Source: Candidatus Peregrinibacteria bacterium (GTDB lineage: Bacteria; Patescibacteriota; Gracilibacteria; Peribacterales; Peribacteraceae). Taken from it: DNA of 35,942 nt. The stretch spans positions 1 to 35,942 of the forward strand of contig JACPMB010000030.1 in assembly GCA_016186175.1 (NCBI GenBank), written 5' to 3'. The notes beneath the pieces are model-generated. The model was not told the origin of the DNA. It did not search any database and was given only the letters and a program-made list of their open reading frames with translations. Shown piece after piece: positions 1 to 15,612 of this stretch (the first letter of the stretch is position 1; every line of letters begins with the position of its first letter). A program made the position numbers and the translations under genes.

Positions 1-324
1 GAGGTCCGAACCATAGGGTATCGCAAGACCTTGGGATGACTTGTGGATAGGAGTGAAAAGCTAACCGAACCCGGAGATAGCTGGTTCTCTTCGAGATGCC
101 TTTAGGGGCAGCCTCCATTCGCACGACGGGGGGTAGAGCGACTGTTTGGATGCGGGAGTCACCTCGACTTGCCAAATCCTGACAAACTCCGAATACCCGT
201 CTTTTGGAATGGGGAGTGAGACGGTGACAGCGAACTGCCATCGTCGTGAGGGAAAGAACCCAGAACATTCGCTAAGGTCCCTAATTATCGTTCAGTGGCA
301 AAGGTGGTGTATGTGCGCAAACAA

Positions 325-355
<31 letters not shown>

Positions 356-452
356 TAAAGAAAGCGTAACAGCTCACTGGTCGACGCATGTATGCGCCGA
401 AAACTCAACGGGGCTAAACGATAAACCGAAGCGGTGTGTGCGATGCGGTCGC

Positions 453-492
453 AAACAGTTAACAATTGACAATTAACAATTAACATTTGACA
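453..492 (+). repeat. Heptameric AT-rich repeats, left edge of the helix-45 insertion
   Basis: Tandem units of the type AACAATT/GACAATT occur here. Related or complementary units recur at 868-914 and at four places in the L1951 intron (2754-2784, 2831-2859, 2931-2952, 3096-3135). They resemble the short tandemly repeated heptamers known from cyanobacteria and other genomes. In this window they are concentrated in the rRNA insertions. Confidence 0.75.
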
Positions 493-503
493 ATGATCGA
501 CTG

Positions 504-890
504 ATGGAAACATTTCGTTTCAAAAACTTTGGCGTGTACAGCGATGCGAAGAAATTCCGCAAACTCGTTCAGAGTTATCTGAAAAAATTTCCACCACATC
601 ATTCATTGCATGATCAGATCAGTAGAGCATGCCTTTCCATTATCTTGAATATCGCTGAAGGTTCTGCCAAAGGTTCCGATAAGGAGTTCAAGAGATTTCT
701 GGGGATGGCAATTGCTTCTGTGAATGAGGTTGTCGCTGGATTTGATCTTGCATGCGATGACGCACTTATTAACGCTGTGGATTTGCAAGTTATTGAAGAT
801 GCCGCAGGAAATGTCGCCAGGCAAATCGGTGGATTCATCAGGAGGCTTGCGTTTGATGTGAAGAGTCAAAAGTTAAGAGTTAAGAGTTAA
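504..890 (+). CDS. Four-helix-bundle protein encoded in the 23S intervening sequence
   Basis: This 128-residue protein belongs to the 23S rRNA intervening-sequence / four-helix-bundle family (the S23 ribosomal-protein-like or IVP family). It has the family hallmark SIILNIAEGSAKGSDKEF (about residues 45-62) followed by FLGMAIASVNE. The family forms small helical homo-oligomers. Its molecular role is not settled, and a link to the rRNA insertion in which it is often found is only proposed. The last residues (QKLRVKS) are encoded by the heptamer repeat that closes the insertion, so the repeat has contributed the C-terminus. No Shine-Dalgarno site is visible before the ATG. Because it lies inside rRNA, it would be translated from the rRNA transcript or the excised fragment. 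Confidence 0.88.
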   Translation: METFRFKNFGVYSDAKKFRKLVQSYLKKFPPHHSLHDQISRACLSIILNIAEGSAKGSDKEFKRFLGMAIASVNEVVAGFDLACDDALINAVDLQVIEDAAGNVARQIGGFIRRLAFDVKSQKLRVKS

Positions 891-914
891 GAGTTAAGAG
901 TTAACAGTTAATTG
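868..914 (+). repeat. Heptameric AGTTAAG repeats, right edge of the helix-45 insertion
   Basis: Four to five tandem AGTTAAG units end in AGTTAACAGTTAATTGTT, which is largely complementary to the left-edge repeats at 453-492. The array overlaps the stop codon of the four-helix-bundle gene. It probably forms the AT-rich part of the stem that closes the intervening sequence. Confidence 0.75.
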
Positions 915-1198
915 TTCGCGGCCGCACCGCGCGGTAGAAGAGCGTTCCCTTCAGCTGTGAAGCAGCACCGCGAGGTGTTGTGGAGCGTAGGGAAGTGAGA
1001 CTGTTGGCATGAGTAACTACTAGGCAGGTGAAAACCCTGCCCGCCGAATCCCCAAGGTTTCCCACGCAACGGCAATCGGCGTGGGGTTAGTCGGTCCTAA
1101 GGCCAGGCCGAAAGGCGTAACCGATGGGCAACAGGTCAACATTCCTGTACTTCCGGAAGATCGTCCCAGGGCAGTCGTTGAAAGTTCAACGAGCCTCT

Positions 1199-1321
1199 GT
1201 CTTCACCATTCTTCACTTACGGCAGTTGAAAGTGGAAAACTGAAAGTGGAAAGTTCGCGAAAAACTTTCCACTATCCACTTACAACTTTTCACTCGTTTG
1301 AGTGTGGAATGGTGGAGACAT
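1199..1321 (+). other. ORF-less hairpin insertion in 23S rRNA
   Basis: Between conserved segments near E. coli position 1400-1420 there are about 120 extra bases that fold back on themselves. The outer arms GTCTTCACCATTC (1199-1211) and GAATGGTGGAGAC (1309-1321) pair almost perfectly. The inner arms AGTGGAAAGTT and AACTTTCCACT, with a GAAAGTGGAAA repeat on the left side, form the tip. It looks like a second RNase III-type intervening sequence without a gene. A lineage-specific helix extension kept in the mature rRNA is the alternative. Confidence 0.6.
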
Positions 1322-1805
1322 GTTTGTCGAAAAGGATACTTCGGTCCTAGGAGCGGTGTGACGGGATGGGAAGAACGCAGCGTGCGCATTGACTGCACGT
1401 GTAACGCGCGAGACGCCGAGAGCGGCAGGGAAATCCGCCGCTTGAGTCGAACGCGGAATCCAAATGTCCCCCGCGAGGGGGTCGAGTGCGTACCTTTCCG
1501 TCTCCAAGAAAACCATCGCTCACAGAGCTTCCGGAAACCGTACCGCAGACCAACACCGGTGGGGTGGTCGAGTAGACCAAGGCGAACGGGAAAACTCGCG
1601 TTAAGGAACTCGGCAATGAAGCGTCCGTAACTTCGGGATAAGGACTGCCAGCGCTTAGCTGCGTTGGTTGCAACAACAGAGGCCGGGCGACTGTTTATCA
1701 AAATCACAGGTCCCTGCTAAGCCGCAAGGCAACGTATAGGGGCTGATGCCTGCCCAGTGTCAGAAGGTCACGTGAGAGGGTGTATGCCTTCGAACTAAGC
1801 CCTGA

Positions 1806-1859
<54 letters not shown>

Positions 1860-1865
1860 GGTCCC

Positions 1866-1915
1866 CCTCGATACGCCCCGCACCTTTCGAAAAGGTGCCG
1901 GGCTACTCGGGTGAC
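1866..1915 (+). repeat. Dispersed hairpin repeat, TCGATACG...CTACTCGGG family, copy 1
   Basis: The constant ends CCTCGATACG and CTACTCGGGTGAC flank a variable hairpin (GCACCTTTC-GAAAAGGTGC). This copy sits in the P1 loop of the L1951 intron, between the 5' splice site and the internal guide sequence. Other copies are at about 2003-2042, 2991-3045, 14732-14790 and 14817-14863. Confidence 0.75.
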
Positions 1916-2002
1916 AATACTTGCCCGAATGCATCGCAAGGTGCAGCACTGAGGAATATCTCTAATGATTTTGATGCGGTCTCATGATCGAGACTCATGA
2001 TG

Positions 2003-2042
2003 TCCTTCGTACGAAATTGCTTCGGCAATTTCTACTCGGGAC
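2003..2042 (+). repeat. Dispersed hairpin repeat, TCGATACG...CTACTCGGG family, copy 2
   Basis: TCCTTCGTACG is followed by the hairpin AAATTGC-TTCG-GCAATTT and CTACTCGGGAC. It has the same constant ends as the other copies, with a different hairpin core. It lies in the 5' peripheral part of the L1951 intron. Confidence 0.7.
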
Positions 2043-2049
2043 GGTCTTA

Positions 2050-2273
2050 TGTTGACCCCACTACGCTCACTGCGTGAGCTACGCGGGGTAAATCTGAGTT
2101 CTATAAATTTTTTGGGACTCCGGAGTCCCTTGGCTGAAGTCTTCTTTACGAAGATGGAAGTTGTATCAGTCCGTAGCTTGTCCCGCGAAGCTCCGCAGCA
2201 GCGGAGCGTAATGGGATGGAATACCATTCAATCACCCCACGTCGCTCGCTTCGGCGAGCTATGCGGGGTAAAC
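2050..2273 (+). repeat. Pair of CCCCAC...GCGGGGTAAA hairpin repeats and a palindrome inside the intron
   Basis: Two related hairpins lie at about 2056-2091 and 2235-2272. Each begins with CCCCAC, has a GCTC...GAGC stem and ends with GCGGGGTAAA. A loop-free palindrome, GGGACTCCGGAGTCCC, lies between them at about 2114-2129. All are in the peripheral part of the group I intron, 5' of the catalytic core, and would probably fold as separate stems. Confidence 0.6.
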
Positions 2274-2443
2274 AGTGTAAAACGTTGCTATATGCTGGAA
2301 TATCCGAGTATGGCGCACTACTTGACAAATTTAATTTGTTGAGTGAAAATGTGTCGCCTGCGCCATGAACCATTCGCGCCTAACGACGCTCAGGTACATG
2401 GCAACGGACAATCAGCAGGAAAGATCTCTTCCCAATCAACGCT

Positions 2444-2710
2444 ATGGTAAATATTGCAGAGATAAAAAATCTGGCTCAGCGCTTAGATGAACTTGATGCT
2501 GCTAGTAGCCATATGGATGATTCATATACTCCAGACGACATAGAAGAGAGTCCGATCATTCAAGAAACTATCTCTGTGACTGAAAATTTAATGTAAATTT
2601 ATCGTTCAGATAGAGTCGGCTTCCGTGCAGTTCTGGGTCAGATGTCACTGACTGACCAAGTCATATTGGCGGAGATTGCAAAAGAAGCTGATGAAGAAGA
2701 TGGGAAGTAA
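2444..2710 (+). pseudogene. Small acidic ORF in the P6 loop of the L1951 intron, interrupted by an in-frame TAA
   Basis: An ATG at 2444 opens a 50-codon ORF (starting MVNIAEIKNLAQRLDELDAA) that ends at TAA 2594-2596. The same frame continues for 37 more codons (with QMSLTDQVILAEIAKEADEE) to TAA 2708-2710, exactly at the 3' strand of P6. The bounds match the P6 loop, where intron genes are typically housed. The composition is acidic and helical, with no LAGLIDADG, GIY-YIG or HNH motif. It could be a decayed 87-residue intron gene, a functional 50-residue peptide, or chance coding. I do not recognise a family. Confidence 0.35.
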
Positions 2711-2753
2711 AGAGAATCCTCAGAGACTACACGCGACGCGCCGCCTTCGGCGG

Positions 2754-3135
2754 ACAATTGACGAGTAACAATTAACAATTGACAGAAAAGTTACAGCCGC
2801 ACGCACCCGTGCGTTTGTTACTCCCAAGGTCAACTGTTAATAGTCAACAGTTAATAGTCCACCGCGAAGCGGTGATGATATAGTCCGATCCCTGTGGCGA
2901 CACAGGGGGCGGCTTCGCCGCAACTGTTAACAATTAGCTGTTAACAGTTGACGGTAGAAAACCGTGCCGCCAATAAAAAACATGCGTTACTCTCCCTCGA
3001 TACGAAATCGCTCCGCGATTTTTACTCGGGGTGACAGAGTAGGTGTTAGTGCGCCCGGATTCGATCCGGGTTCTTGGTTCACCACCAAGAGGAATCGTTA
3101 ACTGTTAATTGTCAAAAGTTAATTGTTAACTGTTC
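2754..3135 (+). repeat. Four clusters of GTTAACAATT-type heptamer repeats in the P8/P9 regions of the L1951 intron
   Basis: Clusters lie at 2754-2784, 2831-2859, 2931-2952 and 3096-3135, built from TAACAATTGAC, CAACTGTTAATAGT and related units in both orientations. They can pair with each other. The last cluster ends GTTAACTGTTCGCG; the right border of the helix-45 insertion ends in a similar TTAATTGTTCGCG. Confidence 0.7.
2991..3045 (+). repeat. Dispersed hairpin repeat, TCGATACG...CTCGGG family, copy 3
   Basis: CTCCCTCGATACG is followed by the hairpin AAATCGC-TCC-GCGATTT and TACTCGGGGTGACAG. It lies in the 3' peripheral (P9) region of the L1951 intron. Confidence 0.72.
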
Positions 3136-3724
3136 GCGTGCTTCGCACGCGTGAAGTTCCGACCCGCACGAATGGTATAACGGTCTGGTCACTGTCTCGA
3201 CGCGAGATCCGGTGAAATTTCAATCCTGGCGCAAATGCCAGGTAGACCACGGTAGGACGAAAAGACCCTATGAAGCTTTACTGTACGCTGACATTGTTTC
3301 GTTGGTTTGCGTGCGCAGGATAGGTGGGAGGCTTTGAGGCTCCGACTTTGGTCGGGGCGGAGCCGCCGTTGAGATACCACCCTCGCGTTCCGCCGAAACT
3401 CACCCCGTCTCTGAAACGGAGCGGGGGACAGTGTTTGCCGGGCAGTTTAACTGGGGCGGTTGCCTCCTAAAGCGTAACGGAGGCGCGCAAAGGTCAACTA
3501 GCGCCGGATGGAAATCGGCGTTGTCGTGTAATCGCACAAGTTGGCCTGACTGTGAGACTTACAGGTCGAGCAGGGACGAAAGTCGGTGATAGTGATCCGG
3601 CAGCCGAGCACTTAAAAATGCTCTTACCACGTGGGTGGGCTGTCGCTCAACGGATAAAAGTTACTCTAGGGATAACAGGCTGATCGGTCCCAAGCGCCCA
3701 CAGCGACGGACCGGTTTGGCACCT

Positions 3725-4563
3725 CAATGGGGTGCTGCGGGAGCAATTCCGCACCAAAAATTCGGCTTATAACGGTGAAACCGTCAAGTAGCACAGTGGG
3801 GTGTACGAATGTACAATACACCTATGCTACCCGGCGATACCGTGGGAAGTCTGAATGCAATACAACGGTCAATTCTCATTGGCAGTCTTCTCGGCGATGG
3901 AACGCTGAGGAGGCAAGGCACGAGGACAAATGCACTTTTCGAAGTGAATCATTCGTTCAAGTGCAAAGAGTATGTCGACTGGAAATATGCGCAGTTTCAA
4001 CCGTATGTCCTGACGCCACCAAAAGCCCGAAAAGGCCGAGGCAAGCGCATCGCATATCGATTTGTCACCCGCAGCCTTCCGGTATTCACTCACTATCATG
4101 AGTGGTTCTACCGGAATGGAAAGAAATACATTCCAGAAGACGTCAATCTCGATCCAATGACATTGGCAGTGTGGTTTATGGATGATGGCACGAATAGTCG
4201 CTCAGCGATTTATCTCAATACGCAGCAGTGCGATATGTCCCAGCAAAAATTCCTTCAGGGATTATTGCGAGAAACATTCGGGATTCGATCCACTCTCAAT
4301 CGAGATCGAACGTATTATCGATTACGTATCACGAGCGAAAGCACGAAAGTATTCAAAGCAATCGTGCAGCCATTCATTCTTCCATGCTTTCAATACAAAT
4401 TGCGTTCATGACCCCGTAACGACTGACTCGAAAGAGAAGGGTTTGCTCCTAGCAAGCCAACACGCCGAGTCCTGCGTCACAACATCAGGCTATGGTGAAT
4501 AACCTACGGCCGATGGCAGGAACAAGATATAGTCTGCGCCACACGAAATTGTGGAACAACGTA
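3725..4563 (+). other. Group I intron in 23S rRNA at E. coli position 2500
   Basis: This 839-nt insertion splits the peptidyl-transferase centre sequence GGCACCT/CGATGTCGG. P1: exon GCACCT pairs with GGGTGC at 3730-3735 around a 5-nt loop, giving the U-G wobble at U3724. The P element ACGGTGAAACC (about 3771-3781) and Q element GATACCGTGGGAAG (about 3836-3849) form P4. P7 is GACT (about 4421-4424) with AGTC in the S element AAGATATAGTCT (4523-4534). A P9 hairpin CCACA/TGTGG follows at 4539-4554. It encodes a LAGLIDADG endonuclease overlapping the core. With these splice sites the last intron base is A, not the canonical G. Confidence 0.85.
3809..4411 (+). CDS. LAGLIDADG homing endonuclease of the L2500 group I intron
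   Basis: This 200-residue single-chain LAGLIDADG DNA endonuclease resembles the LAGLIDADG_2 family of organelle and bacterial LSU introns. Motif 1 is ILIGSLLGDG (residues 22-31) and motif 2 is LAVWFMDDG (119-127); D30 and D126 are the likely metal-binding acidic residues. Family landmarks FKCKEYVDWKY and SLPVFTHYHEWFY lie between them. Such enzymes cleave intron-less 23S alleles near the insertion site and drive intron homing. The ORF is intact, which suggests recent activity. It overlaps the Q element, and its stop lies just before the R element, so coding and ribozyme sequence share bases. An in-frame ATG at codon 6 is an alternative start. Confidence 0.93.
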   Translation: MYNTPMLPGDTVGSLNAIQRSILIGSLLGDGTLRRQGTRTNALFEVNHSFKCKEYVDWKYAQFQPYVLTPPKARKGRGKRIAYRFVTRSLPVFTHYHEWFYRNGKKYIPEDVNLDPMTLAVWFMDDGTNSRSAIYLNTQQCDMSQQKFLQGLLRETFGIRSTLNRDRTYYRLRITSESTKVFKAIVQPFILPCFQYKLRS

Positions 4564-4599
4564 CGATGTCGGCTCATCGCATCCTGGGGGTGGAGAAGC

Positions 4600-4668
<69 letters not shown>

Positions 4669-4799
4669 TGGCCTCTATCCTCCGCGGTCACTTAGAAACG
4701 TGAAGAAAGCTGCTCCTAGTACGAGAGGACCGGAGTGGACGAACCTCTGGTGTGCCTGTTGTCGCGTCAGCGGCATTGCAGGGTAGCTATGTTCGGACG

Positions 4800-4832
<33 letters not shown>

Positions 4833-5111
4833 CCTTCTAAGATAGCGTTTCTCCATCAGCCCGCCGGAAGACTACCGGCTAGATCGGTCGCAGGTGTACG
4901 CGCAGCAATGCGTTCAGCCGAGCGATACGAACGGGCAATTGAACATTTTTTAATGACGAAAGGACAACCTACGGTTTTCCTCTCGTCGGCTCTCCTTTCC
5001 CTCAGTGGAGTGCTTCGGCACGTTTATTGTATGGACCGGAGAGGTACTGTTCGTGTGCTACAACTTGGGCACATCTCAAGAATTGATTCTTTTACAATAA
5101 CGAGTCCAAAG

Positions 5112-8749: not shown

Positions 8750-8771
8750 CGGTGCATTGTGCAGCGTTATT
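8747..8771. repeat. Inverted repeat at the end of the beta-CASP gene
   Basis: ATAACGGTGCA and TGCAGCGTTAT pair around a TTG loop with one internal mismatch. It overlaps the stop region. No T tract follows, so it may act as an RNA-stabilising stem or a weak terminator. Confidence 0.55.
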
Positions 8772-9804
8772 CGCTATTGCCAGAAATCAGGAATTAGTAT
8801 ATAAATGGCATGTGAACACTCTTGCAAAAGTTGGCGGCTTCTGTCCCAGTTCAGAGGAAATAAAAAATGAGATGTTCAAGAACGGAGGATGCGCAAATTT
8901 TCCATGCAATCCTTCCGATTCTCAACGTAAACATTTGGAAAGCAAAATTTCAACGTATGCGAGTATCAAGTGGATAAATCAAGGCGGCATTAAAAACGGA
9001 CGCGACAAAACACGAATGTCTGTATGCGCGATGATTGATCCAAAAACCATTCAAGACAGTTTGCAATTCGGTCACATGCTCGCCGACTTCGGGGCTTATG
9101 CAAAAAATACCACTATTGCGCGGCAGGCCCGGTGGGACACCGAGTCCTGGGAGCGAAATATTTTCCAGTGTAATATGCATGTTAAACGATTGCAGGAAAA
9201 AGGATTCATGCAATCCATTGAATGTATGTGCAGCTCAATATTGGGTCATACATCGGAATATCTTGCGCGAAAAATCATTAAAGAACTGATTTCCGCAATC
9301 CATGCCGATGATGAGTTGCACGTGCCGGAATTCACATCCAATGATTCATTAAAAATCGGGCGAAGTTTCAGAATAGGCGGATTTTCCAGCGGAGGCATAT
9401 TCTTGAAACGAAGAAACAAGAATCCGCAACGATATGATCAGCTTGTTTTACAGGGCGACGGGCCGAATCAGTATTGGTTTTGCGACATCACGGCTTCGGA
9501 ATGGTCTCTGCACAACGAAACTGCGTCTTCGCGCCATCACTGGCTTCCGTCACTTGAACATGAGCTGAAATGTCAGGCGGAGGAGCAAGGTTCTTCCGCG
9601 CCCGCAGTCCGTTTGATGTATATCGTTCATTCTGATTCGTCATCGGCCGATATGGTGGCTCAAGAGGGATTGGGAGAGTGCGTTGTCGTGCGTATTCCAT
9701 TTTTGCAAGAGGCATTGCACCTGAGCGAAGAAGTACTAAAGCGCATGGGTTTCGAGCACCTGATTCCAGTCCTGCAGGAAAACGATTTCGACAAAAACTG
9801 GTGA
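8752..9804 (+). CDS. Unknown protein, up to 350 residues
   Basis: I do not recognise this protein. The ORF is open from ATG 8752, but that codon lies inside a hairpin and upstream of a good promoter. GTG 8812 (giving MNTLAKVGGFCPSS, about 330 residues) is the likelier start and would make the mRNA leaderless. The N-terminal part has several cysteines (GGCANFPCN, CNMH, IECMCSS). The middle has basic and glycine-rich stretches (GGFSSGGIFLKRRNKN), then a C-terminal alpha/beta-looking part (YDQLVLQGDG, YWFCDITASEW, VRLMYIVHSDSSS). There is no leader and no membrane segment. It converges with lysS, whose gene ends 10 bp away, with no terminator between them. Codon use seems less GC-rich than its neighbours, so transfer is possible. 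Confidence 0.7.
   Translation: MHCAALFAIARNQELVYKWHVNTLAKVGGFCPSSEEIKNEMFKNGGCANFPCNPSDSQRKHLESKISTYASIKWINQGGIKNGRDKTRMSVCAMIDPKTIQDSLQFGHMLADFGAYAKNTTIARQARWDTESWERNIFQCNMHVKRLQEKGFMQSIECMCSSILGHTSEYLARKIIKELISAIHADDELHVPEFTSNDSLKIGRSFRIGGFSSGGIFLKRRNKNPQRYDQLVLQGDGPNQYWFCDITASEWSLHNETASSRHHWLPSLEHELKCQAEEQGSSAPAVRLMYIVHSDSSSADMVAQEGLGECVVVRIPFLQEALHLSEEVLKRMGFEHLIPVLQENDFDKNW
8777..8805 (+). promoter_or_regulatory. Promoter TTGCCA-17-TATAAA for the 350-residue unknown gene
   Basis: The -35 TTGCCA (8777-8782) and -10 TATAAA (8800-8805) are separated by 17 nt. The expected transcription start is about 8812, where an in-frame GTG codon lies. This suggests the upstream ATG at 8752 is not used. 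Confidence 0.55.
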
Positions 9805-9814
9805 TCGCGGTGCT

Positions 9815-11938
9815 TCATAATCCCATCTCCCTGGCGACTCCCTTCATGGCTTCCAGGGTCAGTTGTATCATTTCATCAAGCGGCACGCCCAATAACTCCT
9901 CGCATTTCCTGATCTGCTCCCTGCTGACCTGCGCCGCGAAACTCTTATCCTTCATTTTCTTCTTGATGGAACTGACTTCCACATCGGCGATCTTTTTTGA
10001 AGGCCTTACAAGCGTAACGGCGATAATCAGGCCTGTGAGTTCATCCACGCAATAGAGGCATTTTCGCAGCATGCTTTCCAGGGGGTGCTCCGCGCCGTAT
10101 TTCTCCGCATAATGCGAGCGTATGTCCTCCAACAGTTCTTTTGGAGACTTGATTTCCGCAAGCATCTGTTCCAATGTTTTACCACAGTGTTCATGCATAT
10201 CCTTTTCCAAATGATCCCAGTCGAGGTCGTGCAACATTCCGGCGATGCGCCACGTGGCGGTATCGCCTCCGAATTTTTTGGCAAACGCCTCCATAGCAGC
10301 TCCGGTCGCGATCAGATGAGAGCGCGTCTTATCGGCGTGCTTCGACAGAAGACCATGAGCGGCCGGCAAAAGGTGGCCGTATTCGAGGTGTTGCGGAGGG
10401 AGAGACGAAGGAGGGTTGGGGTTAGGGTTAGGGGTGGGGTTAGGTTCAGATTTTTGGCTTAGAAAAGGGCTCATCGTTTTTGCAAGAGGCTTCATCAACG
10501 GGAAAAGAACAACGTCACGAAGGTTTGTCTGTTGTGTCAGAAGCGCAACAATCCGATCCACTCCCATTCCCCATCCAGAGCATGGCGGACATCCGTATTC
10601 CAGAGCCGTCACGAATTCATCGTCTTTCCTGTGCGCTTCGTTGTCTCCTCCTGCATTTGCCTTGTCCTGCTCGTCAAAACGACGTGCCTGGTCCATCGGA
10701 TCAATTAATTCCGAATAGGCGTTCACTACTTCCCATCCGCCGACGACGAGCTGAAAGCGGTCGGTGATGTCCGGATTATCGTCATTTCTGCGCGCAAGGG
10801 GGGAGAGTTCAATGGGATGATCCGTGATAAAGACGGGGGAGGTAAAATTAGGACGACAAACCTTCTTGTAAAGCTGGTCAATCAGGTTCCCCATACTCAG
10901 GTTCTCAGTCGGAACATCGAGTCGGATACTCTCCTTTTTCATGGCTTCCATAAGGGCTCCCCGCGAATTACTCTTTGCAATGTCAATGTCACATCCGCCG
11001 ATAATCGCCTGGCGGATGCTCATGCGGGGCCATGGCGTGGCGAAATCCACTGCCACGGACTTTCCATTGCGGTCATGGATTTTAGTTTTCGTCGTTTCGA
11101 GCATTTCACCGATGATCGAGCTCAGCATTTTTTCGGTGAATTTCATATTTTCCAGATAATCCCAATACGCCGCGTAATGCTCTACCATCGTGAAGTCTTG
11201 CAAGTGGCTCGGATCAAGGCCCTCGTTGCGGAAGACGCGCGCTACTTCAAAAACTCGATCAAATCCCCCAATTAGACATTCTTTCAGGAATGTCTCGGGT
11301 GCAATACGCAGGAAGACATCCAGATCATAGGCTTCATGGTGAGTTGTGAATGGCTTGGCGAGCGCTCCCGACGCTGCATTCACTAGAACGGGCGTCTCCA
11401 CTTCCACGAACTCATGCGACCAGTAGAATTCGCGAAGCTTTTTGAGAAATGCGCTGCGGAAGATAAAGCGATCAAAGCTACCGCGATTGCTCACGGTATC
11501 CAGATATCTCTGCCGCCATGCGGTTTCTTGATCAGCGATCCCGTGCCATTTTTCCGGAGGCTGTCGCAAAGCCTTGCTCAGCATCGTCCATTCCGACGCA
11601 CGGACGGTCGGCTCGCCCTTTTGCGTCGTGAAACGCTTCCCCCTAATGCCGATGAAATCGCCTAAATCAAGCAGATGCAGCATTTCCTTGTACTTTCCCT
11701 TGCCGATGTCTTCCTCTTTCATCGCTATCTGCAGTCGCCCGGTGTGATCCTGCAGTGCCAAAAACGTCATCTTTCCCATGTCCCGTAGCAGGACAACGCG
11801 GCCAGCGATGACGGTTTTTTCTTCATCATTCAATGCCCTTGCCGCCATCAGAGTATGCGTCCGATCAAAGGAAGACGCGTACGGCTGCATTCCCTGCTGT
11901 CGAATGATCTGCGCTTTCTGGAGGCGAAATTGATTCAT
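9815..11938 (-). CDS. lysS: Lysyl-tRNA synthetase (class II) fused to a C-terminal HD domain
   Basis: This 707-residue protein charges tRNA-Lys. It has an N-terminal OB-fold anticodon domain (about 40-120) and a class II core: motif 1 region EVETPVLV (179-186), motif 2 VFRNEGL (235-241) and motif 3 GMGVDRIVAL (457-466). Bacterial LysS normally ends near residue 500. Here a Pro-Asn linker (NPTPNPNPNPP, about 500-510) joins an HD-family phosphohydrolase-like domain with H541, H570-D571 (LHDLDWD) and D632 as likely metal ligands. The linker is encoded by telomere-like GGGTTA repeats. A TATACT box (minus strand, 11953-11948) ends 9 nt before the ATG. The HD domain's substrate is unknown. Confidence 0.92.
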   Translation of the reverse strand: MNQFRLQKAQIIRQQGMQPYASSFDRTHTLMAARALNDEEKTVIAGRVVLLRDMGKMTFLALQDHTGRLQIAMKEEDIGKGKYKEMLHLLDLGDFIGIRGKRFTTQKGEPTVRASEWTMLSKALRQPPEKWHGIADQETAWRQRYLDTVSNRGSFDRFIFRSAFLKKLREFYWSHEFVEVETPVLVNAASGALAKPFTTHHEAYDLDVFLRIAPETFLKECLIGGFDRVFEVARVFRNEGLDPSHLQDFTMVEHYAAYWDYLENMKFTEKMLSSIIGEMLETTKTKIHDRNGKSVAVDFATPWPRMSIRQAIIGGCDIDIAKSNSRGALMEAMKKESIRLDVPTENLSMGNLIDQLYKKVCRPNFTSPVFITDHPIELSPLARRNDDNPDITDRFQLVVGGWEVVNAYSELIDPMDQARRFDEQDKANAGGDNEAHRKDDEFVTALEYGCPPCSGWGMGVDRIVALLTQQTNLRDVVLFPLMKPLAKTMSPFLSQKSEPNPTPNPNPNPPSSLPPQHLEYGHLLPAAHGLLSKHADKTRSHLIATGAAMEAFAKKFGGDTATWRIAGMLHDLDWDHLEKDMHEHCGKTLEQMLAEIKSPKELLEDIRSHYAEKYGAEHPLESMLRKCLYCVDELTGLIIAVTLVRPSKKIADVEVSSIKKKMKDKSFAAQVSREQIRKCEELLGVPLDEMIQLTLEAMKGVAREMGL
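10405..10447. repeat. Telomere-like GGGTTAGGGTTAGGGG repeat encoding the LysS-HD linker
   Basis: The plus strand reads as several G-runs separated by TTA, TT or T (GAGGGTTGGGGTTAGGGTTAGGGGTGGGGTTAGG in outline). Read on the minus strand it encodes alternating Pro-Asn. With at least five G-runs it could form a G-quadruplex on the non-template strand of lysS. Confidence 0.8.
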
Positions 11939-12007: not shown

Positions 12008-12026
12008 CTTAATTCCCAATGCGTTT

Positions 12027-12233
12027 ATGACGACCATTTCCGTGCCGCTCACCGACGAGATGTTGAAGGCAATTGAGGATTTGATTCGCGATGGCATTGC
12101 TTCCAATAAAGCCGATGCGATGCGTAAAGCGATGAAAAAATATTTGGAAGATCAGGCAGTGGAAGCAGTATTGCAAGCTCAACGCGAGCCGACTCTCCAC
12201 GGAAATTTTGATGACCTTCTGAAGAAGTTCTGA
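12027..12233 (+). CDS. Ribbon-helix-helix antitoxin
   Basis: This 68-residue protein starts MTTISVPLTDEMLKAIEDLI, a typical RHH beta-strand and helix that binds operator DNA as a dimer, with a second helix from SNKADAMRKAMKKYL. The C-terminal tail (QREPTLHGNFDDLLKKF) should wrap and neutralise the toxin. An ATG upstream at 11970 is in frame but lies in the promoter -35, so 12027 is chosen. The toxin gene begins 2 nt after the stop, as in classical type II modules. The operator at 11993-12007 suggests autorepression. Confidence 0.85.
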   Translation: MTTISVPLTDEMLKAIEDLIRDGIASNKADAMRKAMKKYLEDQAVEAVLQAQREPTLHGNFDDLLKKF

Positions 12234-12235
12234 CA

Positions 12236-12496
12236 ATGCTCCGCATTGCCTACAAAGCGGCTTTCTTCCGAGCGTTCAAGAAATTACCACACGTTCTTCA
12301 GAATGAAGCGAGGAGATCTATTGAGCTTTTTGTCAAAAACCCGCATCACCAAACGTTGCACACACACAAGCTGAAAGGAGCTCTGCGAGGCAGATGGGGT
12401 TTTCCCGTCAATTATCGATATCGGGTCATCTTTATCTACGAAAACAAGCACACGGCAGTTTTCCTTACCGTTGGCGACCATTCTGTCTACGAGTGA
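12236..12496 (+). CDS. RelE/ParE-family toxin (YafQ/RelE-like mRNA interferase)
   Basis: This 86-residue RelE/ParE-superfamily toxin has the family pattern KNPHHQTLHTHKLKGAL, then GRWGFPVNYRYRVIF and FLTVGDHSVYE. Basic residues and the terminal His-x-x-Tyr are typical of ribosome-dependent mRNA interferases, though a ParE gyrase-poison role cannot be excluded. It is cotranscribed with the RHH antitoxin 2 nt upstream. The gene appears intact. Confidence 0.87.
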   Translation: MLRIAYKAAFFRAFKKLPHVLQNEARRSIELFVKNPHHQTLHTHKLKGALRGRWGFPVNYRYRVIFIYENKHTAVFLTVGDHSVYE

Positions 12497-12517
12497 CAAC
12501 TACGTGGGGAGTTGCAT

Positions 12518-12546
12518 TTGCACACATCTTCATTTTCCGCTATAAT
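12518..12546 (+). promoter_or_regulatory. Promoter TTGCAC-17-TATAAT of the four-gene membrane cluster
   Basis: The -35 TTGCAC (12518-12523) and perfect -10 TATAAT (12541-12546) have a 17-nt spacer. Transcription should start near 12553, so translation must begin downstream, at ATG 12587. Confidence 0.75.
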
Positions 12547-12586
12547 AGTGGAAACCGTAACACTCATATCCATCCCCCCGTGCGCT

Positions 12587-13000
12587 ATGCGTACTGTCCT
12601 GTATCTGCGGTCGAACGAGAAAACGATGTTCGACAATTTGCCTGCTGCTCTTCGTCGGAAATGGGAGAGCAAAATAATCGAGGAAACCGCAGAAAATTTC
12701 GAGCATCCCGAAGAATTGGAACGCCGCATTGCCAGGTACTCCAAGAACCCAACGCTTGCTCCTTACATCGAGAAGGTCAACGAGCGATTGCAAAAGGGCG
12801 AGGATTTCGGCGCCATTCTCGCGGACATGCCCGAAAACGTCCTTAATGTCTTCCTAGATGCCATCGGCAACGCTGGCATCTGCATGTTCATTGAATTCGC
12901 ACTGCTTAGCGGCAAGGCGAATGATGAGGCGATGAAGGGCATCGCCGTTCTTTCTGCGATTCGCCATCGGCAACTGATGCATAAATCCGTTCTTGCCTGA
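12587..13000 (+). CDS. Unknown small protein, paralog 1 of the four-gene cluster
   Basis: This 137-residue protein is clearly related to the gene at 13512 (138 residues). Shared positions include Y-L near the start, E-K, D-x-LP, W-x-x-K, the EET triplet, EEL, and a C-terminal LSxxRHxxL. Both are charged and helical in the first two thirds and have a hydrophobic stretch near the end (AIGNAGICMFIEFALLSG here), which could be one membrane helix. The ORF is open from 12512, but the promoter at 12518-12546 rules that start out. I do not recognise a family. It is the first gene of a tight co-directional group. Confidence 0.72.
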   Translation: MRTVLYLRSNEKTMFDNLPAALRRKWESKIIEETAENFEHPEELERRIARYSKNPTLAPYIEKVNERLQKGEDFGAILADMPENVLNVFLDAIGNAGICMFIEFALLSGKANDEAMKGIAVLSAIRHRQLMHKSVLA

Positions 13001-13018
13001 TTCCTTAACCCCCCCCTC

Positions 13019-13474
13019 ATGGTAAACAGAAATAATCAGGGTCCTAATGAAAATCCAAGTGACGGACAGGAACGTCCTCGTTCCCGCCTGTTGAAATGGG
13101 TCGTGACTGCGCTTGCGCTCGTTGGAGCTTATTCTCTGCTTCCCGCATCGGCGAAAGCGACAATCTCAAATGTCGCAAGAGGTAGCTACAATGCGATCAC
13201 GAACAAACTGTTCCCCGGCATGCCGCCCATCGGCCTTTCGCCGGCGGCGGCCAGGGCTTACCGGGAGAAGTATCAAGAGCTGACGAAACTGCAATACGAC
13301 CCCCAAATTGCCAGAACGATGTCCTGGGACTGGGCAACGGAAGTCGGCAAAAAAACTGTCCATGCGGAGCGTACCAAATTTGCAACGGATGCAGGGAGCG
13401 TGATTGGCAGCGTGGCCCCCGGACCGGCTGGCCTGCTGACACAGGAGGCAATAAAGCAATCCTCAGGAATCTGA
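13019..13474 (+). CDS. Unknown membrane-anchored protein, second gene of the cluster
   Basis: This 151-residue protein has a disordered, polar N-terminus (NRNNQGPNENPSDGQERP), then one hydrophobic segment (WVVTALALVGAYSLLPASA, about residues 27-45). A soluble helical part with KYQELTKLQYDPQIARTMSW follows, and the C-terminus is Gly/Pro-rich. The layout fits a single-pass membrane protein or an exported protein with an uncleaved leader. It lies 18 bp after paralog 1 and 37 bp before paralog 2. It shares the LLP-after-hydrophobic-segment feature with the fourth gene, but clear homology is not visible. Function unknown. Confidence 0.68.
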   Translation: MVNRNNQGPNENPSDGQERPRSRLLKWVVTALALVGAYSLLPASAKATISNVARGSYNAITNKLFPGMPPIGLSPAAARAYREKYQELTKLQYDPQIARTMSWDWATEVGKKTVHAERTKFATDAGSVIGSVAPGPAGLLTQEAIKQSSGI

Positions 13475-13511
13475 GCAAGTTGGCCTGATCATCAAGTTTC
13501 GCACACAAACA

Positions 13512-13928
13512 ATGACCATCTACCTCACCAAAGCCGAGCGAAAACTCTACGACAGACTACCCGTGAGCATGAAGAAGGCATGGGGCGGGAAAGTGGAAGA
13601 AGAGACAGGGACCGCGTGGGAGACGAATGAGGAGCTGATTGAGCGCGCCGATTATCTGCGCAGCCAGCTGCCTCCGCGTCTTGGTCTCGCCCTGGAACAT
13701 ATGGTTTCAAAAGCGGGTAAGGAAGGCCTGGATGCTGTTGGCGTTGATGATTTCCCCTCCGAAGTCCTGACGAAAGCGTTGCTCGTTCTCGGCGCGGTCG
13801 GCCTAACAGCAGTCATCCATCGCACACTCATCGACGCAAAGAATACCAAGGACCTTTCCGCAGTTGCCAGTTTGAGCGAAGTGCGTCACCAGATTCTGAT
13901 ATCGAATTCGCTCGTTCTTCAACGATAA
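13512..13928 (+). CDS. Unknown small protein, paralog 2 of the four-gene cluster
   Basis: This 138-residue protein (MTIYLTKAERKLYDRLPVSM...) aligns over its full length with the protein at 12587. Common positions are D-x-LP, W-x-x-K, EET, EEL and LSxVRHxxL at the end. The hydrophobic segment is LTKALLVLGAVGLTAVI. The low identity but equal length points to an old tandem duplication, with a membrane gene between the copies. No catalytic motif is seen. Function unknown. Confidence 0.72.
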   Translation: MTIYLTKAERKLYDRLPVSMKKAWGGKVEEETGTAWETNEELIERADYLRSQLPPRLGLALEHMVSKAGKEGLDAVGVDDFPSEVLTKALLVLGAVGLTAVIHRTLIDAKNTKDLSAVASLSEVRHQILISNSLVLQR

Positions 13929-13933
13929 TTCTC

Positions 13934-14575
13934 ATGAGTAGCACACAAGCACCACCGGAAAATCCATCCGAGAATCCGCCATCCGTTGACGAAAAACTGA
14001 CAGTCCCGAAGAAGGGACCCATTCGCCTTGAGCAAAATCCCGGCGATATTCGTGTTGCCGGACCGACGTTGAAGCGCTTTGTAGAAGCGGACAGTCCCAC
14101 GAAAAAGTATCGTGCGGGGCTGGAACTGCAGGAAGAACTCATTAAAAACATGGCATTGGAAAAGAAAACATGGCTCGGAAAGATCTTCAAGAACAAACTT
14201 ACCAAAGCCGCTTTGCTCATTGGCGCCGGTGCCCTCCTCCCCACTGTCGGCAGCATCGCATTGGGGGGAGAAGTTCCTGCGTGGATGACCGGCATTTGGG
14301 AAAGAGCAAAAGATACAGGAGGGACTCTCGCAGGAGTTGTGCCAACGGAATATGCAAAAGCAATATGGGGTGAAATGCCGCTTGGCTCCAAAGCCGCGTT
14401 TACTCTTGCCGGTGGGGGGCTCGCGGCAGCCGGTATCTACAAGGTCGGATTGCGTTTGACCCAAGGAAATAAAGATGCCAGAGATGAACGCAAGAGACTA
14501 CTGAGCAATCTTGAAGATGAAAAGAGGAAAATTGATATCGGGCAGGTGCATATTCGAAAAGCGGAGGATCGGTAA
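13934..14575 (+). CDS. Unknown membrane protein, fourth gene of the cluster
   Basis: This 213-residue protein has a Pro/Ser/Glu-rich disordered start (STQAPPENPSENPPSVDE), a helical segment and two hydrophobic stretches: AALLIGAGALLPTVGSIALGG (about 92-112) and AAFTLAGGGLAAAGIYKVGL (about 156-175). They are separated by a 40-residue loop with EVPAWMTGIWERAKDTGG. A basic coiled tail (DARDERKRLLSNLEDEKRK) follows. The topology is probably a membrane hairpin with both ends in the cytoplasm. It starts 5 bp after paralog 2, so it should be cotranscribed. Function unknown. Confidence 0.7.
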   Translation: MSSTQAPPENPSENPPSVDEKLTVPKKGPIRLEQNPGDIRVAGPTLKRFVEADSPTKKYRAGLELQEELIKNMALEKKTWLGKIFKNKLTKAALLIGAGALLPTVGSIALGGEVPAWMTGIWERAKDTGGTLAGVVPTEYAKAIWGEMPLGSKAAFTLAGGGLAAAGIYKVGLRLTQGNKDARDERKRLLSNLEDEKRKIDIGQVHIRKAEDR

Positions 14576-14662
14576 GTATCTTTGTGGAGCAGGAAGCATG
14601 AGAAAATGAGAAACATGCTGCTTTCTCTTGATCATCAGGTTCCCTCTTTCTCCGAGTGAAGT

Positions 14663-14691
14663 TTGACAGGTCAGCTTGGCATGCCTAGACT
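14663..14691 (+). promoter_or_regulatory. Candidate promoter TTGACA-17-TAGACT for the ribosomal-protein operon
   Basis: A consensus -35 TTGACA (14663-14668) lies 17 nt from TAGACT (14686-14691). It is the only strong match between the membrane cluster and rplC. Confidence 0.55.
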
Positions 14692-14731
14692 CCGTCCGCT
14701 CTCGTTTTTTGCGTGAGTGGTCTTGTGTTCG

Positions 14732-14790
14732 TTCCTCGGTACGCCCCGCACCATTCTGCGGAAAGGCGCGAGGGCTACTCGGAATGACAG
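14732..14790 (+). repeat. Dispersed hairpin repeat, TCGATACG...CTACTCGG family, copy 4
   Basis: TTCCTCGGTACG is followed by a GC-rich variable core (CCCCGCACC...GGCGCGAGGG) and CTACTCGGAATGACAG. This copy is outside the rRNA operon, which shows the family is genome-dispersed and not part of the intron ribozyme. Confidence 0.72.
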
Positions 14791-14816
14791 AGGGCCGTCT
14801 TGTGTTCAAGTCTGGT

Positions 14817-14863
14817 GTTCCATCGATACGAAATTTGCTCCGCAAATTTCTACTCGGGATGAC
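14817..14863 (+). repeat. Dispersed hairpin repeat, TCGATACG...CTACTCGGG family, copy 5
   Basis: CCATCGATACG is followed by the perfect hairpin AAATTTG-CTC-CGCAAATTT and CTACTCGGGATGAC. Confidence 0.75.
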
Positions 14864-14914
14864 AACTATCCAGGCTAGAAGAACCTCCAGGATCTTAAGT
14901 TCACAAGCTCTTCC

Positions 14915-14953
14915 TCTCATCCTTCGTGGCCCTTCGGGGCGCCTCAGGATGAC
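14915..14953 (+). repeat. Hairpin repeat TCATCCTTCGTGGCC...GCGCCTCAGGATGA
   Basis: The ends TCATCC and GGATGA pair, with an inner GGCCCTTCGGGGC stem. It resembles small dispersed palindromic repeats of other genomes. It lies just upstream of rplC. Confidence 0.6.
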
Positions 14954-14997
14954 CACTGTATGTCCGGCCTTATCGCTAAAAAAATGACAACTCTTTT

Positions 14998-15612
14998 ATG
15001 TCTGGATTGATTGCTACCAAAATCGGCATGTCACGCATCTTTCGGGAGAGCGGGGAGGCGGTTGCCGTGACTTTTCTACAGGCCGAGCCGAATACAGTGG
15101 TGCGGACAAAGACGAAAGAGAAGGACGGCTACAATGCAGTGGTTCTGGGCGTCGGCGCGAAACCGTGGAAGAGCCGAAAGGGGAAAGAGAATGTCCGGTA
15201 CGCCGCGCAAAAGGAATGGAAAGTTGATTCGCTCGAGGGGATGGAACCGGGGAGAAAAATCACCGTGGAGATATTCGTCCCCGAAAGCCTCGTTTGCATT
15301 CAGGGCGTCTCCAAAGGAAAGGGCTTCCAGGGAGTAATGAAGAGGTGGCACTTCGGCGGCGGCCCCGGCAGCCACGGATCGCACTTCAAGCGCGAGCCGG
15401 GCTCCGTCGGCATGCGCACGCAGCCGGGCCGCATCCTCCCCGGTCATCACATGGCCGGTCACATGGGCAGTGACAGCGTAACGCTCCACCGCCGTCCGGT
15501 AGTTACGGTGGATGCGGAAAAAGGGATAGTCGGCGTGAAAGGGCCGGTGCCCGGGCCGAACGGGGGGCGGGTGTACATTACTGTTGAGCCTTCCACTGAT
15601 AAGAAGTCCTAG
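14998..15612 (+). CDS. rplC: 50S ribosomal protein L3 (uL3)
   Basis: This 204-residue 23S-binding assembly initiator contacts the peptidyl-transferase region. The start GLIATKIGMSRIF, the central loop FQGVMKRWHFGGGPGSHGS and HMAGHMGSDSVT are diagnostic. The usual GQ(S/T)NP-type variation near the loop tip is replaced by GRILPGHHMAGHMG. It is the first gene of the large ribosomal-protein operon; S10 is missing upstream. The ATG is preceded by a CTCTTTT tract and no Shine-Dalgarno site. Confidence 0.97.
   Translation: MSGLIATKIGMSRIFRESGEAVAVTFLQAEPNTVVRTKTKEKDGYNAVVLGVGAKPWKSRKGKENVRYAAQKEWKVDSLEGMEPGRKITVEIFVPESLVCIQGVSKGKGFQGVMKRWHFGGGPGSHGSHFKREPGSVGMRTQPGRILPGHHMAGHMGSDSVTLHRRPVVTVDAEKGIVGVKGPVPGPNGGRVYITVEPSTDKKS

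Follow-up and report, generated by a model that had tools for sequence, protein, structure and literature searches.

The window, the whole stretch of 35,942 nt analysed here, comes from a Candidatus Peregrinibacteria bacterium (contig JACPMB010000030.1) and contains a cluster of four genes between lysS and rplC. These are A1 (12587-13000, +), encoding a small, helical and probably soluble A-family protein of 137 aa; B (13019-13474, +; 151 aa), with a short polar N-terminus, a single membrane helix at residues 24-42 and a tail that is likely exported; A2 (13512-13928, +; 138 aa), an A-family protein from a separate, old clade; and C (13934-14575, +), a membrane protein of 213 aa with a helix at residues 92-110 and a weaker hydrophobic stretch at approximately 152-172. 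The ORFs, their sizes and their shared + strand agree with the original prediction of a four-gene membrane cluster, and the genes are separated by only 18 nt (A1/B), 37 nt (B/A2) and 5 nt (A2/C). A candidate cluster promoter (TTTGCA-18 nt-TATAAT; 12517-12546, +) matches 10/12 hexamer positions and lies ~40 nt upstream of A1. That one promoter serves all four genes, as had been proposed, is plausible in that the hexamers exist and are well placed, but the region has 4 promoter-like sites compared with 3.0 ± 1.9 in shuffles, a number not above chance. A ribbon-helix-helix/RelE-type toxin-antitoxin pair ends upstream at 12496 and rplC begins downstream at 14998. The gap between C and rplC (14576-14997) contains short repeat-like stretches of ~45 nt that are 81-93% identical to several other places in the genome.

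A1 and A2 had been called paralogs and this was borne out. A whole-genome search with A2 found A1 at E=2.6e-12 (32% identity over 132 residues), and the two proteins have the motifs DxLP, EET, EEL and LSxxRHxxL in common. Compared with its orthologue in sister genome G001 (71.5% identity), A1 gives a dN of 0.19 and a dS of 1.89, the latter near saturation; on these estimates A1 is under purifying selection, with a dN/dS of ~0.1. The hydrophobic segment previously assigned to each A protein does exist, with a mean Kyte-Doolittle value of 1.46, but it contains 1.84 charged residues on average (64 relatives), whereas the corresponding values for B are 1.77 and 0.30. The AlphaFold2 model of A2, based on 12 sequences (pLDDT 87.7), is compact, with two short strands, six helices and no disordered parts. 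The A proteins are therefore without a clear membrane helix and are probably soluble, possibly membrane-associated. Searching the PDB for similar folds with this model gave no clear match (best Foldseek E 1.1, best VIA-align Z 5.5), these best scores being in the range of common helical arrangements.

A profile search, suggested along with the prediction, identified A homologues across the GTDB family of the window. With A2 as the sole query, copies were found in 14/40 relatives, all from that one family, reaching A genes outside the genus at E-values down to 3.6e-16; two further copies lie in the source genome itself, at C38 and C35. A 15-row profile that includes both window sequences scores A1 and A2 at 2.4e-44 and 3.5e-43. 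By profile search A is present in 55/74 genomes and 29/40 genera of the family and was not found outside it in a 380-genome sample of the phylum, nor were relatives found among viral contigs, phages and plasmids. Named carriers are mostly Ca. Peribacteria or Peregrinibacteria MAGs.

The usual arrangement in these relatives has A as the first gene of an operon, followed by B and then by a gene for a very large protein, hereafter the giant. For 63 A copies the downstream sequence reaches 900 nt or more; 7 of these belong to the genus cluster of the window type and 56 lie elsewhere. Essentially all of the latter are followed by B: 54 by HMM under an automatic rule (E<0.05), L028 by HMM at 5e-14 and L038 by position only. 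The B start is mostly a few nt from the A stop, and a 4-nt overlap is the commonest arrangement. A giant comes next in 49/56 cases, 46 of them at least 800 aa by rule and three by inspection (L028, with 791 aa plus a second part, L038 and L077). The giants range from 791 to at least 2,560 aa, are mutually related and evolve fast. Of the seven copies without one, five lie in loci ordered pyruvyl transferase-A-B-lepA, one is at the end of a contig and one is in the first unit of the A-B-A-B-giant tandem of G010. Since these five loci keep A-B alone, the giant is not obligatory. Moreover, A is absent from 19 genomes of the family (G002, a member of the window's genus, and 18 others), so the A-B module is non-essential. 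The commonest setting (27 copies) places the module after a CsaB-like pyruvyl transferase gene and before lepA, and 8 copies are divergent from glmS. The CsaB-like gene is immediately upstream in about half of the loci; it scores 133.6 bits against TIGR03609 (cutoff 213.1), an assignment below cutoff. One contig titled Micrarchaeota archaeon (L053) has the Peribacteria order A-B-giant-lepA, groups with L054 and is probably misbinned.

The window has a derived form of the module, two A-B units in tandem, in which the giant third gene is missing and rplC comes after C; the source genome retains A-B-giant modules at C38 and C35. The giant profile (A4) misses even these giants and its silence is thus uninformative.

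For the second gene, an HMM was built from 21 B proteins, all from outside the window's genus. It recovers B in 20 loci kept out of training, 18 at E<=3e-8 and 2 at 0.02. Immediately ahead of the helix the family carries an almost invariant His, with Pro as the usual next residue, and in 23/27 proteins Lys/Arg are more numerous before the helix than after it. Because basic residues favour the N-terminal side, B likely has its N-terminus inside and its tail outside. C of the window matches this HMM at E 1.1e-4, the best true non-member in that set being 0.062; however, hits of ~1e-4 also occur as genome-wide noise, and the membership of C therefore leans on position too. B of the window has no detectable match (E 1.9). 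In both, position and a membrane helix fit the B role. Of the two, only C scores, weakly, against the B family, and B and C are not similar to each other in pairwise comparison (best E 0.55). Between the window and G001 B is barely alignable, whereas A1 is well conserved, and the first B of the window's genus has only ~20 residues ahead of the helix, a small surface for A to bind, which weighs against the binding proposed below. A phylum-wide search with B gave, outside the class, only hits of 1e-4 to 7e-4; these are mostly inside long unrelated frames and were taken as noise.

The module extends beyond the family. A 50-row A profile searched against 353 genomes of the class returned two weak out-of-family hits (E 0.002-0.006), both of which begin an A'-B'-large third gene locus whose B' scores 5e-9 and 3e-6 with an HMM made from family B proteins only. 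A profile from these two A' sequences identified two more A'-B'-large loci in two further families (B' 9e-13 and 2e-9). With such loci in four other families, the module spans five families of the class or more. The alignable part of A' and A is confined to the C-terminal hairpin (hhalign probability 85). The large third genes outside the window's family are related among themselves but show no significant link to the giants within it. Of the class genomes, 54 carry both A and B, 5 have A alone, 4 have B alone and 290 have neither (54/63 of those with either), counts that are not corrected for kinship. At locus L105 (1-2579, family f17) two or more copies of the large third gene stand in tandem, their N-termini almost the same.

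Recurrence of the A-B-A-C order had been proposed as a check, and the order is kept in 3/4 genomes of the genus, at the same site ahead of rplC in sister genomes G001 and G003 (loci L025 and L026). In G002 (98% complete) lysS adjoins rplC with no cluster between them, and no A was found anywhere in the genome. In a tree of A sequences, A1 and its orthologues form one clade (100/93) and A2 and its orthologues another (98/85), the latter clustering with the leading A copy of G010 and with a copy in G416 that lacks a giant (88/90). Because A1 and A2 fall in separate clades, the tandem is best read as two old A types and not as a local duplication, and on this tree A1 and A2 are old paralogs. The original suggestion of a membrane complex built by duplication is only partly right: A paralogs do alternate with membrane partners, but A is probably soluble, the duplication is old and the unit is the A-B pair.

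The position after a toxin-antitoxin module and before the ribosomal operon likewise describes the window correctly, but adjacency to the ribosomal operon is limited to this genus and the toxin-antitoxin pair appears incidental. In G003 lysS and A1 lie less than 150 nt apart, too close to accommodate the pair, which is therefore not part of the cluster. A link was rejected, the pair being missing at the orthologous sites of relatives. RelE-type toxin-antitoxin pairs are beside 2/3 A loci of the source genome (window 12009-12496; L003 2425-2918), probably by coincidence. The adjoining lysyl-tRNA synthetases differ in kind: G001 has a class I enzyme beside the cluster (L025:4036-5547; PF01921, 2.5e-87), unlike the class II LysS with a C-terminal HD-type domain at 9815-11938 of the window.

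A1, B, A2, C, the B relatives and the giants gave no above-cutoff match and no recurring family in Pfam, NCBIfam, PHROGs and PADLOC, and PDB sequence searches with the A and giant profiles gave nothing usable. A literature search, with most subscription journals outside its coverage, did not find the operon described. The A-B(-giant) module, whose identity has good support, thus seems to be undescribed and to fit no known kind, and we infer its function. In this respect the original prediction of an undescribed system stands, with the A-B pair recurring across relatives and no curated family fitting any part.

The explanation that we favour, at about an even chance of being correct, is that the cluster consists of two tandem copies of a conserved A-B pair, the invariant core of a probable cell-envelope module of Peribacteria and some related families that is usually completed by a giant. 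A would be a small cytosolic helical protein whose synthesis immediately precedes that of B, often with translational coupling, and which may bind the cytosolic or membrane-proximal part of B. B would be bitopic: from an N-terminus on the inside it would run through a basic segment containing Trp and His-Pro into one helix and end in an exported tail rich in Pro, Ala and Gly. Together the pair would be a foot in the membrane that carries the giant. Behind this reading, the gene families, the operon, the co-occurrence, the distribution and the A model are shown directly, and the topology of B, its binding by A, the mounting of the giant and the envelope role are inferred. The pairs of the window would either serve the giants encoded at C38 and C35 in trans or display their own tails. 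More tentatively, and with rather low confidence, we suggest that A-B-giant could be the membrane base and shaft of a lineage-specific envelope or surface structure of Peribacteria and related families, perhaps for attachment to other cells, in which the A-B foot was doubled and acquired new tails in the window's genus. The CsaB-like gene upstream of A-B(-giant) in approximately half of the loci recalls S-layer anchoring and hints at an envelope context; unlike in that system, there are no S-layer family matches for A, B or the giants, and the cluster in the window has no CsaB-like neighbour.

In type III and ESX chaperone-client pairs, a small soluble protein is encoded directly before larger partners. 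A resembles these chaperones in size, probable solubility and gene position, a likeness of working and not of descent: it has no sequence match to them, no recognisable fold match among the listed PDB entries and no secretion apparatus nearby. A could nevertheless be a dedicated chaperone for secretion or membrane insertion, with B and the giant as its clients and the giant an exported or surface effector for cell contact. A is better conserved than these putative clients, and the size and rapid evolution of the giants would suit such a role, but secretion-system genes are absent beside the module and the giants showed neither a recognisable signal peptide nor a known secretion domain. Moreover, no known chaperone is among the PDB entries listed for the A fold, an absence that excludes nothing. 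Overall we consider this explanation unlikely.

A different account would have the window cluster as a decaying remnant of A-B-giant, kept by chance and without present function. The missing giant, a B and C that barely retain family features and the lack of a cluster in G002 are consistent with decay, but four intact ORFs whose order is shared by three species, and the low dN/dS of A1, argue against it. Moreover, the A2 clade and the five giant-less A-B loci make giant-less pairs look long-lived, and we regard a remnant as improbable. Less probable still is a defence, toxin-immunity or regulatory unit in place of an envelope part. The fast evolution of the partner genes and the RelE-type neighbours in the source genome point in that direction; however, there was no PADLOC hit, the toxin-antitoxin pair is missing at orthologous sites, and a fixed chromosomal setting across many genera with no presence in phages, plasmids or viral contigs is unlike mobile defence.

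Under the preferred reading of A-B as an envelope core, the operon adds a candidate to a poorly stocked inventory, as to our knowledge few CPR envelope parts are known. A life on or together with other cells is ascribed to many CPR bacteria. Here a conserved three-gene operon with no annotated family is found in approximately three quarters of the genomes of one family and in four more families. Its recurring chromosomal setting and clear minimal unit, A-B, make it a target for binding, localisation and structural work. The giants resemble the large surface proteins of Ca. Peribacter riflensis in being large, unannotated and of the same lineage; those proteins are cysteine-rich and mostly have signal peptides, and the passages of that report consulted contain no mention of the operon (PMC4736985).

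Lastly, two further features of the window were observed. Pfam and NCBIfam gave no match for a 350-aa ORF at 8752-9804, directly after the beta-CASP nuclease gene. The 23S rRNA gene (1-4938) is interrupted, with Rfam matches at 1-1919 and 3222-4938 and ~1.3 kb between adjacent model positions. The second match spans twice its model length and encloses a LAGLIDADG endonuclease ORF (3809-4411), and the gene likely contains two or more introns.
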